Assembly (NCBI GenBank): GCA_001802945.1
Contig: MHAK01000099.1
Span: 1-53,468 of the forward strand
Direction: 5' to 3'
Source of the DNA: Ignavibacteria bacterium RIFCSPLOWO2_12_FULL_56_21
Lineage (GTDB): Bacteria > Bacteroidota > Ignavibacteria > UBA10030
DNA length: 53,468 bases
Shown here: one piece after another, positions 12,038 to 36,503 of the stretch
Layout of the letters: every line of letters begins with the position of its first letter
Numbering within the stretch: position 1 is the first letter of the stretch
The notes under the pieces: model-generated
What the model was told of the DNA's origin: nothing
The model's input: the letters and a program-made list of their open reading frames with translations, nothing else
Database searches by the model: none
Translations under genes and position numbers: made by a program

Positions 12038-12131
12038 GCCGAAGTGGCGGAATTGGCAGACTTGGCACGTGCCGGGATGTGCCTGAGGACGTGCCAAGCT
12101 GGACTCTAGATCCAATACGGTTCACCCCGTG
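12038..12131 (+). pseudogene. Defective tRNA-Leu copy 1 with a hairpin inserted in the D-arm
   Basis: The first 23-24 bases (acceptor strand and D-loop) match the intact tRNA-Leu at 12713. A 38-base insert then forms a perfect 10-bp hairpin (CTTGGCACGT 12061-12070, ACGTGCCAAG 12089-12098). After it the tRNA resumes with an anticodon arm and variable arm. The anticodon loop is changed to CTCTAGA, giving formal anticodon CTA at 12106-12108. The copy stops after the variable arm and joins directly to the last codons of a GIY-YIG gene (aagatttctgaag...), so the T-arm and 3' acceptor strand are missing. It is not a functional tRNA as encoded. Confidence 0.8.
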
Positions 12132-12255
12132 AAGATTTCTGAAGTCTAAAATTGGATAATAAAGTTTAAGAAAGTTAAGCTTCGTGGCATGAGCTTGGAA
12201 ACATGCTGCGGTGTGGCAAACTGTCGTAAAAGCCGAAGTGGCGGAATAGGCAGAC
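12131..12255 (+). repeat. 125-base direct repeat, copy A
   Basis: Matches 12612-12736 with four differences counted by eye. It holds the last codons and stop of a deleted GIY-YIG gene (RFLKSKIG), a spacer of about 70 bases, and the first 24 bases of the next tRNA-Leu copy. This repeat, together with the duplicated tRNA segment, shows that the locus grew by tandem duplication of a unit consisting of tRNA-like copy, GIY-YIG gene and spacer. The first unit then lost its gene. Confidence 0.85.
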
Positions 12256-12346
12256 TTGGCACGTGCCGGGATGTGCCTGAGGACGTGCCAAGCTGGACTC
12301 TAGATCCAATACGGTTCACCCCGTGTGGGGGTTCCCCGCTTCGGCA
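12232..12346 (+). pseudogene. Defective tRNA-Leu copy 2 with the same D-arm hairpin insert
   Basis: Both acceptor strands are present (GCCGAAG 12232-12238, CTTCGGC 12339-12345), so this copy spans a whole tRNA. It has the same 38-base hairpin insert in the D-arm and the same CTA anticodon loop as copy 1. The T-arm reads GGGGGTTCCCCG: the stem remains but the seven-base T-loop is cut to two or three bases. Loss of the T-loop and of the D-stem 3' strand makes normal tRNA function unlikely. A further scrap of the tRNA 5' region (ggcggaattggca) is seen near 12361-12375, just before the GIY-YIG gene. Confidence 0.8.
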
Positions 12347-12400
12347 CGGAATACATTTAGCGGCGGAATTGGCACTTGACGTGTGAATTGAGGTGGGGAG

Positions 12401-12640
12401 ATGTACTGGGTGTACGCACTGCTTTCGATCTTGGATGGAAGCATTTACGTCGGAATGACTCAAGATCTTGACCGGCGAATGGGGGAGCATCTTAGGGGCA
12501 AGGTGCGATCGACAAGATACCGCCGTCCCTTGAGACTGATCTATAGTGTGGAATGCTCTTCGCGGAAAGAAGCTCGTCGATTGGAAGTATATCTAAAGAG
12601 TGGCGAAGGGCGAAGATTTCTGAAGTCTAAAATTGGATAA
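12401..12640 (+). CDS. Standalone GIY-YIG nuclease-domain protein in the tRNA-Leu element
   Basis: 79 residues, a single GIY-YIG catalytic domain (UPF0213/UvrC-N type) with no added DNA-binding domain. The motif residues are visible: VY at 4-5 and YVG at 16-18 (the GIY and YIG parts), DRR at 24-26 with the catalytic Arg, His30, and Glu57 in SSRKEARRLE, the usual metal-binding Glu. A GAGGTGGGGAG ribosome site precedes the ATG. It lies inside the tRNA-Leu array, 72 bases before the intact tRNA, and has no promoter of its own that I can see, so it is probably read from the tRNA promoter at 11953. It aligns without gaps to the GIY-YIG protein at 36121 (36 of 67 positions identical by hand). Endonuclease activity is inferred from the family. 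Confidence 0.85.
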   Translation: MYWVYALLSILDGSIYVGMTQDLDRRMGEHLRGKVRSTRYRRPLRLIYSVECSSRKEARRLEVYLKSGEGRRFLKSKIG

Positions 12641-12736
12641 TAGAGTTTAAGGAAGTTAAGCTTCGTGGCATGAGCTTGGAAACATGCTGCGGTGTGGCAA
12701 ACTGTCGCAAAAGCCGAAGTGGCGGAATTGGCAGAC
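12612..12736 (+). repeat. 125-base direct repeat, copy B
   Basis: Counterpart of 12131-12255. It runs from the last codons of the intact GIY-YIG gene through a spacer of about 70 bases into the first 24 bases of the intact tRNA-Leu. The four differences are single substitutions, so the duplication is fairly recent. Confidence 0.85.
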
Positions 12737-12798
12737 GCGCTGGACTCAAAATCCAGTACGGTTCACCCCGTGTGGGGGTTCGACTCCCCCCTTCGGCA
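12713..12798 (+). tRNA. tRNA-Leu(CAA)
   Basis: Complete cloverleaf. Acceptor GCCGAAG/CTTCGGC (12713-12719, 12791-12797); D-stem GCG/CGC; anticodon stem CTGGA/TCCAG with loop CTCAAAA (anticodon CAA, reads UUG); long variable arm TACGGTTCACCCCGT, as class II tRNAs require; T-arm GGGGG-TTCGACT-CCCCC; discriminator A at 12798. CCA is not encoded. The five bases before it (caaaa) belong to the repeat spacer rather than to a native promoter region, showing that this copy was regenerated at the end of the inserted array. No U-run terminator is obvious downstream. Confidence 0.95.
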
Positions 12799-12878
12799 CA
12801 ATAGTAGGCAAGAATGTGGTTTTCGTCCACGGCGGCCGCCCGCCGCCTCGCTGGAGGCAGACATGTTCCACTGATACG

Positions 12879-35037: not shown

Positions 35038-35979
35038 ATGCACGTCCCACTCGTACTTGCCATCGTTGGTCCGACGGCCGCAGGAAAGACTCCTCTAGCG
35101 GTTCAGTTGGCTCAACTCCTTTCAGGCGAAGTGCTCTCCGCGGATTCCCGCCAGATCTATCGGTATCTCGACATCGGGACTGCAAAGCCGACACCTTCGG
35201 AACGACAGGGTATTCCTCATCATTTTTTGGATATCCTGGACCCGAATGCGCCATACAACGCAGGTCAGTTTGGAATTGAAGCGCGTGACTGCGCCGCGGA
35301 GGTTGCCGTAAAAGGAAACCTGCCGATCCTCGTCGGCGGCTCCGGACTGTACGTCCGCTCATTCGTCGACGGGTTGTTCACCGGACCCGGAAAGGATATG
35401 GATCTTCGATCAAGACTTCAGGAACTGCTGGACGAAGAAGGGGAGGCGGCGCTGTATGCAGAGTTGAGGAAAGTGGACCCGGTAGCAGCCGCAAAACTGG
35501 AATCCGGAAAACCGCGCCGGGCAATGAGGGCATTGGAGGTCTTTTATACGACCGGCAAACCTATCTCGGAGCATCACAAGGAGCAGATACCGCAGGGTGT
35601 GGTTAAGGTGCTGCAGATCGGGTTGCAGATTGAAAGGGAAGAATTGCACAGACGTATTGACGATCGGGCGGCCCATATGATCGAACGAGGTCTGGTGGAT
35701 GAAGTACGATCGCTTCTTGCCCGTGGTTACGACCGTTCACTGAACGCACTGAATACCGTCGGTTACAAAGAGGTTCTTGACTTGCTTGATGGCAAAAGCG
35801 GCGAGAAGGAGATGCTTGAGAGTATTCGGCGCAACACGCGCCGATTCGCGAAACGTCAGATGACCTGGTTCCGCGCGGACAAACGTATTCATTGGATCAC
35901 CGCAGGAAAGCAGACAGCGCTAAAGAAACTCGCGGGCGAGATCGTTGAGCACATGAAGCAGGAAGAAGGTGTTCATTGA
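35038..35979 (+). CDS. miaA: tRNA dimethylallyltransferase
   Basis: Adds a dimethylallyl group to A37 of tRNAs that read UNN codons. About 313 residues. The P-loop reads GPTAAGKTPLA, then EVLSADSRQIYRYLDIGTAK, GGSGLYVRSFVDGL and GYKEVLDLLDG. I choose the ATG at 35038 because family members begin a few residues before the P-loop. A TTG at 35023 is possible. Its last bases contain the -35 of the tRNA-Pro promoter (35976-35981). Confidence 0.94.
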   Translation: MHVPLVLAIVGPTAAGKTPLAVQLAQLLSGEVLSADSRQIYRYLDIGTAKPTPSERQGIPHHFLDILDPNAPYNAGQFGIEARDCAAEVAVKGNLPILVGGSGLYVRSFVDGLFTGPGKDMDLRSRLQELLDEEGEAALYAELRKVDPVAAAKLESGKPRRAMRALEVFYTTGKPISEHHKEQIPQGVVKVLQIGLQIEREELHRRIDDRAAHMIERGLVDEVRSLLARGYDRSLNALNTVGYKEVLDLLDGKSGEKEMLESIRRNTRRFAKRQMTWFRADKRIHWITAGKQTALKKLAGEIVEHMKQEEGVH

Positions 35980-36004
35980 ATTCAATGCAATGGAATTGTA
36001 TATT
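35976..36004 (+). promoter_or_regulatory. tRNA-Pro promoter, now upstream of the tRNA fragment
   Basis: TTGAAT (35976-35981), 17 bases, TATATT (35999-36004) followed by TG, giving TATATTTG, the Bacteroidota TAnnTTTG form. It lies 12 bases before the broken tRNA-Pro 5' fragment at 36017, exactly where a tRNA promoter belongs, and 350 bases before the intact tRNA at 36355. Confidence 0.75.
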
Positions 36005-36016
36005 TGATCTTGTAAT

Positions 36017-36032
36017 CGGGGCGTGGCGCAGC
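36017..36032 (+). pseudogene. tRNA-Pro 5' fragment left by insertion
   Basis: CGGGGCGTGGCGCAGC is identical to the first 16 bases of the intact tRNA-Pro (36355-36370). With the preceding T at 36016 and 36354 the match is 17 bases. It breaks in the D-loop and is followed at once by GC hairpins instead of the rest of the tRNA. It is the left copy of a direct repeat bounding the GIY-YIG insertion. Confidence 0.88.
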
Positions 36033-36035
36033 GCC

Positions 36036-36092
36036 GTCCCGTCCGTGCAACGGACGGGACGTGCGTCCTCGTCCCCGCCTACGGCGGGGACG
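36036..36092 (+). repeat. Two strong GC-rich hairpins at the left end of the tRNA-Pro element
   Basis: First hairpin: GTCCCGTCCGT (36036-36046), loop GCA, ACGGACGGGAC (36050-36060), 11 bp perfect. Second: CGTCCCCGCC (36070-36079), loop TAC, GGCGGGGACG (36083-36092), 10 bp perfect. They replace the tRNA body after the 16-base fragment. In RNA they would be very stable. In the tRNA-Leu locus a 10-bp hairpin occupies the equivalent position in the D-arm. Confidence 0.88.
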
Positions 36093-36120
36093 GGACCTGG
36101 CGTCAGGGGGAAAGGGCGCT

Positions 36121-36378
36121 GTGTATTGGGTCTATGTTCTAGAAAGTCAGCTGAACGGTCGTTTTTATGTTGGTCATACGAATGACCGGGACAGGCGGGT
36201 TGAGCAGCACAATCGAGGCGAGGTGAAATCAACTCGGCCACATAGACCGTGGATCTTGGTTTACTCTGAAGCTTATGCAACACGCAAAGAAGCAATGCGG
36301 CGTGAACGCGAGATCAAGAGCAGGAAGAAGCGGAAATACATTGAAGAACTGATTCGGGGCGTGGCGCAGCCTGGCTAG
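36121..36378 (+). CDS. Standalone GIY-YIG nuclease-domain protein ending inside tRNA-Pro
   Basis: 85 residues from the GTG at 36121, which follows GGGGGAAAGGG. A longer start at 36061 would translate the hairpin and is rejected. GIY-YIG residues: VYWVY at the start, FYVG at 15-18, DRR at 24-26, His30 and Glu57 in ATRKEAMRRE, then a basic tail IKSRKKRKY. The last seven codons (RGVAQPG) and the TAG stop (36376-36378) lie within the tRNA-Pro gene, starting exactly at its first base. RNase P cutting at the tRNA 5' end would therefore remove the stop codon from the message. It aligns with the protein at 12401 at 36 of 67 positions. It is probably read from the tRNA promoter at 35976. Confidence 0.85.
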   Translation: MYWVYVLESQLNGRFYVGHTNDRDRRVEQHNRGEVKSTRPHRPWILVYSEAYATRKEAMRREREIKSRKKRKYIEELIRGVAQPG

Positions 36379-36429
36379 CGCGCTTGGTTCGGGACCAAGA
36401 GGTCGCGAGTTCGAATCTCGCCGCCCCGA
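36355..36429 (+). tRNA. tRNA-Pro(CGG)
   Basis: Complete cloverleaf. Acceptor CGGGGCG/CGCCCCG (36355-36361, 36422-36428); D-arm GCGC...GCGC; anticodon stem CTTGG/CCAAG with loop TTCGGGA (anticodon CGG, reads CCG); T-arm GCGAG-TTCGAAT-CTCGC; discriminator A at 36429. CCA is not encoded. The CGG start of the acceptor fits prokaryotic tRNA-Pro. Its 5' end overlaps the GIY-YIG reading frame, and a terminator follows at 36471. Confidence 0.95.
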
Positions 36430-36470
36430 CTTTGAATAACTACCCGGTTGCGTGAGGAACAATGTTGAAT

Positions 36471-36503
36471 GAGGCCCGATCGTTGATCGGGCCTCTGTTT
36501 TTT
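36471..36503 (+). terminator. Rho-independent terminator after tRNA-Pro
   Basis: Perfect 11-bp stem GAGGCCCGATC (36471-36481) and GATCGGGCCTC (36485-36495) with loop GTT, followed by TGTTTTTT. It ends the tRNA-Pro transcript. Confidence 0.93.

Follow-up and report, generated by a model that had tools for sequence, protein, structure and literature searches.

Small GIY-YIG nuclease genes beside transfer RNA genes and hairpin-bearing partial tRNA copies: putative isotype-specific homing elements on bacterial chromosomes

Integrases and islands that target transfer RNA (tRNA) genes insert in such a gene and restore it by means of the tRNA piece that they carry, group I introns with GIY-YIG homing genes occur in tRNA, and the REP/RAYT and mitochondrial double-hairpin elements consist of short GC hairpins found with a small enzyme or near tRNAs. 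The nearest known system to the one described here is SegB of phages. According to the excerpted text of the report on it, SegB of phages T4 and T6 is a free-standing GIY-YIG homing endonuclease of phage tRNA clusters that reportedly makes its cuts within tRNA genes and, through recombination, causes the tRNA-segB segment to amplify in tandem, and the escape of the intact tRNA from cutting is also discussed there (PMC13096335). Here we analyse a 53,468-nucleotide (nt) stretch of Ignavibacteria bacterium RIFCSPLOWO2_12_FULL_56_21 (contig MHAK01000099.1; the whole stretch is referred to as the window), in which a GIY-YIG nuclease gene of 85 codons has a broken copy of tRNA-Pro(CGG) on one side and an intact one on the other. 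We found that this unit is one case of a larger family, in which a small free-standing GIY-YIG gene is accompanied by a partial copy of the resident tRNA. We consider it reasonably probable that these are isotype-specific minimal homing elements that enter tRNA genes and reconstitute the tRNA, the cutting and the homing being what we infer.

The Pro(CGG) unit lies on the forward strand, and all of the parts named in a preliminary description of this DNA (promoter, repeat, hairpins, GIY-YIG gene, tRNA-Pro(CGG) and terminator) were found in place. It opens with a promoter-like sequence of the tRNA type (35976-36004), as judged from its letters, composed of TTGAAT (35976-35981), a 17-nt spacer and TATATT (35999-36004). 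After 12 nt more, this promoter-like sequence now leads into the broken tRNA-Pro copy, and TATATT-like boxes also stand 5′ of tRNA-Pro at several of the empty sites described below. The broken copy holds nt 1-16 of the tRNA (36017-36032), identical to the intact tRNA-Pro at 16/16 positions. It is interrupted in the D-loop by an insert with two hairpins (36033-36096), and it resumes with CTGGC, equal to nt 17-21 (36097-36101); these five letters are weak alone, and the broken tRNA-Pro(GGG) copy of locus L174 resumes past its hairpins likewise. The two hairpins, at 36035-36061 (with a perfect stem of 12 base pairs (bp)) and at 36070-36092, form one double-hairpin unit, and the same plan is seen in other broken tRNA copies. 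Taken as RNA, the region 36012-36125 has a fold z of -5.0, with none of 200 shuffles equally stable.

The GIY-YIG gene follows at 36121-36378 with a GTG start, and its 85-residue product matches PF01541 at 65.5 bits (E 5.3e-18) against a curated cut-off of 22.6. The end of its frame overlaps the intact tRNA-Pro(CGG) (36355-36430; Rfam tRNA, 64.3 bits), with the stop codon falling within the D-loop of this downstream tRNA, and a terminator-like hairpin with a T-run can be read at about 36471-36503. The 17-nt direct repeat that had been taken to bound the element (36016-36032 and 36354-36370) is exact, but it consists of one flanking T plus nt 1-16 of tRNA-Pro and is really a piece of the broken copy that resumes past the hairpins; on the same grounds we rejected its interpretation as a target-site duplication. 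As had also been claimed, there is no sign of an integrase, in that no open reading frame longer than 132 residues overlaps the 338-nt insert. A Pfam scan, which covered the GIY-YIG frame only, detected no second domain in the 85-residue protein, and in Rfam only tRNA scored above cut-off at the Pro(CGG) locus and at the tRNA-Leu locus of the window, with no intron family at E ≤ 1.

We found that the association between such genes and tRNAs extends far beyond the window. In the source genome (G000), PF01541 matches seven frames, of which five are small, and all five small genes have a tRNA in flanks of up to 1.5 kilobases (kb), namely Pro, Asp, Leu, Ser and Asn. The other two frames are of 635 residues (UvrC-sized), with no tRNA in the locus, and of 340 residues, with a tRNA about 1.4 kb away. 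Among relatives, 39 of 41 genomes (source genome included) gave a match; the set comprised 30 listed loci plus 40 stretches (one a repeat, one an extension), with weaker matches mostly left out. A tRNA was present in 26 of the 30 loci among the matches listed, and when the 40 further stretches were pooled with the genome's own loci a tRNA accompanied 74 of 84 GIY-YIG hits, on the same strand in 74/74, a count that includes one repeated locus (L040 = L018) and some short hits. The phylum sample gave a match at E ≤ 1e-8 in 91 of 198 genomes, a few of them shared with the relatives' set. Its 42 new loci, made up of 22 newly listed ones and 20 chosen stretches partly selected for long contigs and arrays, had a tRNA with 52 of 60 hits and on the same strand in 52/52 (two loci counted twice).

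For 51 loci of named genomes the figures were 32 of 64 hits and 32/32 on the same strand. The tRNA-linked hits in these genomes come from Bacteroidota, Ignavibacteriota, Fidelibacterota, Verrucomicrobiota, Planctomycetota, Chloroflexota and Zixibacteriota, and further tRNA-linked hosts are one Falkowbacteria genome, one gammaproteobacterium and one unplaced genome. Homologues of the small GIY-YIG type without a tRNA in the stretch were also seen in archaea (L101, L105, L109, L111, L113-L117, L120, L122, L124 and L127), and loci L035, L053 and L054 share a supported GIY-YIG clade and the same order with no tRNA or tRNA fragment nearby. In mobile DNA, a tblastn search of 50,697 phage records matched 5 at E ≤ 1e-3, and 2 of 72,556 plasmid records matched, in neither case with any match covering more than 80% of the query; IMG/VR gave three partial matches.

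Pooled without repeats, the sets yield 183 rows, of which 136 have a tRNA within 800 bp, on the same strand in 136/136. The remaining 47 show tRNA fragments in 18 cases, several at contig ends, and neither tRNA nor fragment in 29. The pooled sets omit L005 and L007 (other proteins), L008, L040, L248 and L256 (repeats), L128-L245 (other queries) and GIY-YIG frames shorter than 66 residues, and the sets of 117 rows used hereafter hold one row per locus and isotype or anticodon. The median distance between gene and tRNA in these 117 tRNA-linked loci is 43 bp, and 114 lie within 250 bp, a fraction drawn from loci selected as tRNA-linked; by our estimate a random gene would lie this close to a tRNA with a chance of about 1%, given some 45 tRNAs in 3.4 megabases (Mb). 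In 76 loci the nearest intact tRNA precedes the nuclease gene, and in the other 41 it follows it.

Furthermore, a second partial copy of the same tRNA, with an exact run of at least 11 nt, was found around the nuclease in 111 of the 117 loci, compared with a mean of 9.1 when a tRNA of another isotype served as control. The proposed survey of small GIY-YIG genes for a nearby tRNA and a tRNA fragment was thus strongly positive (136/183 rows; 111/117 loci), and both this coincidence and the stability of the RNA fold go beyond chance. A hairpin with pieces of the same tRNA on both sides was mapped in 57 loci (control 0.2); if a piece on one side is enough, the number rises to 88 (control 4.5). Among loci L001-L127, we counted hairpins up to 350 nt from those nuclease genes whose nearest tRNA is at most 250 bp away; this sequence (59.6 kb) contains 222 hairpins, against 21-29 in three shuffles, and 82 hairpins with CCCG near the foot, against 0-2. 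A control region around the start of der (19.6 kb) contains 25 and 2, respectively.

The hairpins sit in the D, anticodon or T arm of the tRNA copies, depending on the locus, and their positions often recur within an isotype. Writing the last and the next tRNA nt on either side of the hairpin, we found it at 51|60 in six of nine Asp loci, whose six stems differ in sequence and stay complementary, and at 27-28|45-46 in four Pro loci (L021, L026, L046 and L052), with 28|51 in L097. Gly(TCC) has 27|43 in both loci, Val has 32|43, 30|44 or 28|46, and Ala has 26-28|42-44 in three of five loci, which belong to the window's order, Fidelibacterota and Chloroflexota. For Asn the position is 34-36|47 in three genomes of the window's order, 23|34 in four Verrucomicrobiota loci, and 28|36 and 49|55 in one Saprospiraceae genome. 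Met shows 38-39|48 in two Verrucomicrobiota loci and 28|45 in another genome, and Ser(GGA) shows 21|22 in L059 and a hairpin after nt 21 in L118. The plan of a tRNA 5′ end broken in the D-loop, as first described, therefore stands for the window unit and does not stand for the family, in which the intact tRNA is more often upstream and hairpins occur in the anticodon and T arms as well.

These hairpins could themselves be the mobile entity, of a REP-like or double-hairpin kind, with the GIY-YIG protein as the mobilising enzyme and the tRNA loops as landing sites, which we would see in spare copies only. The double hairpins do follow one plan in many tRNA copies, their stems covary (7 of 19 consensus pairs changed on both sides among nine aligned examples, the window's included), their insertion points lie in loops, and some copies in G000 and in the same-genus genome G001 have no nuclease gene in the stretch. 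Dispersal, in contrast, was not seen: the exact double-hairpin junction has five matches within the genus, every one of them located inside a broken tRNA copy or next to a GIY-YIG gene, and many sites replace an arm rather than merely insert in it, at positions that recur by isotype. Outside the genus the junction pattern has 2 matches, which is chance level (the reversed control has 5, none of them in the genus). A looser pattern gives 12 forward matches in the source genome, two of them at tRNA units (C12 and C99), and 11 in G001; the other matches fall in 19 stretches, of which 7 have a tRNA, one more has a GIY-YIG gene and 11 have neither, so that the loose pattern shows no confinement and the strict one does, for the genus only. 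On balance, we regard this explanation as unlikely.

Double-hairpin tRNA copies without a nuclease were noted in the source genome at L162 and L167 (Gln and Trp) and in G001 at L170, L172, L174, L176 and L178 (Thr, Val, Pro(GGG), Arg and Pro(TGG)); these may be remnants of units or represent a non-autonomous form. A longer hairpin family (CGTCCCGCC...GGGCGGGACG, 41 nt) was also noted in the source genome at L160 (C5) and L168 (C123), with no tRNA in the stretch.

Returning to the homing-element reading, long contigs reveal how the units are arranged when they are repeated. At least two nuclease genes are present in 17 of 116 loci, and arrays of nuclease-tRNA units occur at Pro(CGG) and Ser(TGA) in G165 (a single contig; L268 and L269). 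The cultured bacterium Algoriphagus yeomjeoni has an array at tRNA-Lys (L094). The Pro(CGG) array of G165 has three units, of which neighbours are equal at 316 and 317 of 317 positions, each in the order tRNA nt 1-28, hairpin, tRNA nt 46-52 and nuclease gene, with one intact tRNA closing the array. The Ser(TGA) array has three identical 323-nt units with a D-loop double hairpin and the nuclease joined at nt 35. The Pro(TGG) array of G218 (3.3-Mb contig, L270) is a mirror image, in which the intact tRNA leads and four units follow in the order terminator-like hairpin, nuclease gene, tRNA from about nt 20 to 28, hairpin, and nt 46 to the end. The carried piece can be the 5′ or the 3′ part of the tRNA, depending on the array, and this is the anatomy that results if DNA bearing one side of a tRNA enters a tRNA gene.

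The only other tRNA detected in the window, tRNA-Leu(CAA), also adjoins its own GIY-YIG gene on the forward strand. This locus starts with a broken tRNA-Leu copy that has a D-loop hairpin and is fused near the T-arm to a 3′ relic of a GIY-YIG gene (12038-12131). The relic and a spacer, part of a repeat, occupy 12132-12231 and are followed by a second broken copy (12232-12347), which has a hairpin in the D-loop and whose anticodon and T loops are changed, by the second GIY-YIG nuclease gene (12401-12640, domain 12404-12637) and by the intact tRNA-Leu(CAA) (12713-12799). A 125-nt repeat (12131-12255 and 12612-12736) at 97% identity indicates that the array has been duplicated; Tandem Repeats Finder missed this array. 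Both broken copies within 12038-12799 have the anticodon loop CTCTAGA, that is, CTA instead of CAA.

Another explanation would place the target in RNA: the GIY-YIG protein would act on tRNA or tRNA-like RNA, and the broken copies would serve as decoys or antitoxin-like RNAs in a toxin-antitoxin or defence system. Such a role would suit the strong RNA fold, the frequent replacement of the anticodon or T arm, and the strict same-strand rule, which permits co-transcription. The broken copies that we examined, however, are for the most part missing one end and unable to take on a tRNA fold, the G218 array carries a terminator-like hairpin between tRNA and nuclease, and GIY-YIG enzymes are known as DNA nucleases, all of which makes this explanation very unlikely.

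For the reading as isotype-specific homing elements, we examined how the nucleases relate to the tRNAs beside them. In a GIY-YIG tree (117 rows, 78 columns, quick search) isotype changes 33 times, compared with a mean of 82.3 after shuffling, and none of 200 shuffles was as low; the isotype label is that of the nearest intact tRNA and may be wrong in clusters such as L103. An earlier tree of 127 rows, 36 of them unlabelled, gave 26 changes against 64.4 shuffled, again with none of 200 as low. Furthermore, the nearest homologue in another host family is linked to the same isotype in 69 of 117 cases, while 2000 shuffles gave a mean of 12.5 and a maximum of 28. The domain itself is well conserved in the 117 tRNA-linked rows, with Y15 in 116/116, R25 in 117/117, H29 in 117/117 and E61 in 116/117 (domain numbering, starting at residue 2), and we take the Tyr, Arg and Glu of this set to be catalytic. 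Two tRNA-linked pairs contained sufficient changes to estimate the ratio of nonsynonymous to synonymous change (dN/dS), which came to 0.22 and 0.14, and one further tandem pair has two silent changes and nothing else. A purely neutral origin, in which tRNA genes were duplicated in tandem, the nuclease came along as a passenger and the hairpins arose by later decay, would account for tRNA pieces that are direct repeats, for the tandem arrays and for the decay of some nuclease copies (G001), yet it is quite improbable in view of the near-invariant nuclease positions, the low dN/dS of the two usable pairs, the recurrence in several phyla, the perfect-stem hairpins at recurring positions and the clustering of the proteins by isotype.

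A homing element should leave both occupied and empty sites, and the preliminary description had predicted empty miaA-tRNA-Pro-der sites. In 30 der loci, miaA and tRNA-Pro(CGG) lie upstream of der in 12 (source genome included), and 15 have no tRNA-Pro. Of the 15 loci with tRNA-Pro we compared 13, omitting L205 and L207, which have no miaA. In nine of the 13 the gap between miaA and tRNA-Pro is 46-117 nt and contains neither a 10-nt tRNA piece nor a 7-bp hairpin, and the 200 nt after the tRNA are likewise free of 10-nt tRNA pieces. The gap in the source genome is 375 nt, of which the unit makes up 338. The others are G005 (gap of 171 nt with a hairpin), G014 (downstream fragments) and G009 (occupied), and in G021, G009 and G040 another nuclease lineage is found 3′ of the same tRNA-Pro. 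The same-genus G001 has miaA followed by a tRNA-Pro identical to the window's over 76 nt. Neither an 8-nt tRNA piece nor a 6-bp hairpin occurs in the 301 nt upstream of this tRNA; downstream is the frame of a different nuclease lineage, in which the YIG motif is lost.

A similar picture was observed for tRNA-Asp, where 30 listed loci include six with a GIY-YIG gene (G000, G004, G006, G012, G022 and G034) and 18 that lack both such a gene and any 12-nt tRNA piece in the stretch covered, the rest having pieces or no called tRNA. At the tRNA-Asp locus of G001, tRNA 5′ pieces are followed by hairpins without a nuclease gene, and G030, which is outside these 30 loci, also has a GIY-YIG gene at tRNA-Asp. 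Occupied and empty states of the same site were thus found at both miaA-tRNA-Pro and tRNA-Asp, across genomes rather than strains. Collectively, these results bear out a GIY-YIG unit tied to a tRNA of which a complete copy remains, the predicted empty sites included. We also considered that the element brings a recoded, resistant tRNA allele, which was not supported, the tRNA-Pro and the tRNA-Asp being identical in G000 and G001.

Under the homing hypothesis, and judging from the protein family and from SegB, the nuclease would recognise the gene of one tRNA isotype and break it. The broken ends would pair with the two tRNA copies that flank the donor nuclease gene, and repair would copy the nuclease gene in, a step that would require no homology beyond the tRNA. 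The outcome suggested by the anatomy would be an intact tRNA on one side, a partial copy on the other and the nuclease between them, such that the host retains its tRNA and the element is housed harmlessly, on the same strand as the tRNA. The hairpins might deprive the spare copy of the nuclease site and of its function as a tRNA, and might hinder its recombination with the intact one, and repeated rounds or unequal exchange could generate tandem arrays. This model of break and repair is consistent with both gene orders, with the same-strand rule and with the clustering by isotype, and it accommodates the empty sites as well as the arrays.

Several observations weigh against this hypothesis. 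What we observed directly are the anatomy, the strands, the copies, the repeated hairpin positions, the clustering, the empty sites and the conserved nuclease, whereas we infer the cutting and the transfer. All loci were found by similarity to the window protein, so that the tRNA association describes the clade of that protein, and the named-genome hits from archaea and Bacillota (L102, L107 and L123) have no tRNA. The GIY-YIG trees rest on 78 columns and have few supported forks, in 48 of 117 cases, that of the window protein included, the nearest homologue from another host family is linked to a different isotype, and vertical descent at a fixed locus would give isotype clustering too. The tandem pairs of L042 and L059 (99% identical) have two amino-acid changes each and no silent change. 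As for the hairpins, 29 of the 117 loci have none mapped, where mapping misses hairpins with a loop longer than 10 nt, the Leu hairpin of the window being an example, and flanks without a tRNA within 250 bp (34.5 kb, contig ends included) contain 77 hairpins, 20 with CCCG at the foot. Their positions are not uniform either: no position was mapped in three of the nine Asp loci, the Ala hairpin lies elsewhere in two of five loci, and the Pro(CGG) hairpin of the window is at 16|17 in the D-loop, as that of L085 is also in the D-loop. Hairpin-bearing partial tRNA copies with no GIY-YIG gene in the 3-kb stretch analysed exist, and together with the 29 of 183 rows that have neither tRNA nor fragment they indicate that the parts, whose independent occurrence had been named beforehand as an observation that would count against the element, do in part occur apart. 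Finally, the tRNA-Pro and tRNA-Asp of G000 are identical to those of G001, which leaves the escape from self-cutting unexplained, and with no further Pfam domain in the 85-residue protein the isotype specificity has no obvious reader.

One conceivable reader is the broken tRNA copy itself, which, if transcribed, might bind the GIY-YIG protein via the hairpins and pair with the matching tRNA gene. Such RNA-guided homing would explain the isotype specificity of an 85-residue domain, the persistence of the hairpin copies and the same-strand rule; we hold it to be more improbable still than the explanations by an RNA target or by neutral duplication.

If the reading as minimal homing elements is true, the tRNA genes of many bacteria carry little-noticed selfish elements that rebuild an essential host gene, and clusters of broken tRNA copies find an explanation. 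It would also make tRNA-gene homing testable in bacteria and provide a collection of tiny nucleases that seem to differ in target according to isotype.

Compared with known systems, the units share with tRNA-targeting islands the restoration of the tRNA, but the 338-nt insert has no room for an integrase and the carried piece may be the 5′ or the 3′ part. With group I introns they share GIY-YIG in a tRNA context, yet here the functional tRNA is uninterrupted and no Rfam intron matches. Unlike in REP/RAYT, the enzyme is a GIY-YIG protein rather than a Y1 transposase, and within the genus the junction pattern occurs at tRNA and nuclease loci only. The single-domain GIY-YIG proteins of UPF0213 are similar in size to the window protein and have the same domain, and two of them, 1zg2 (E 2.9e-11) and 1ywl (1.2e-8), are the sole PDB sequences matched at E ≤ 0.01. 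As for SegB, the 5 phage records matched by tblastn at E ≤ 1e-3 include no T-even phage, and no profile comparison was made. In the open-licence PMC literature, preprints not included, none of the titles and opening lines of abstracts among the matches listed describes chromosomal tRNA-linked GIY-YIG units with hairpin-bearing tRNA copies. Both SegB and the present nucleases are free-standing GIY-YIG nucleases adjoining tRNA genes; SegB is phage-borne and, in the excerpted text of its report, is described as without preference among tRNA isotypes (PMC13096335), whereas the units described here are chromosomal, encode a protein of 85 residues in the window, are clustered by isotype and come with hairpin-bearing partial tRNA copies. 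Taken together, free-standing GIY-YIG homing enzymes beside phage tRNAs are known, and what we regard as new here are chromosomal, minimal, isotype-clustered, tRNA-rebuilding units with hairpin-bearing broken tRNA copies, which, if our reading is true, would be the chromosomal counterpart of the recently described SegB-tRNA amplification of phages.

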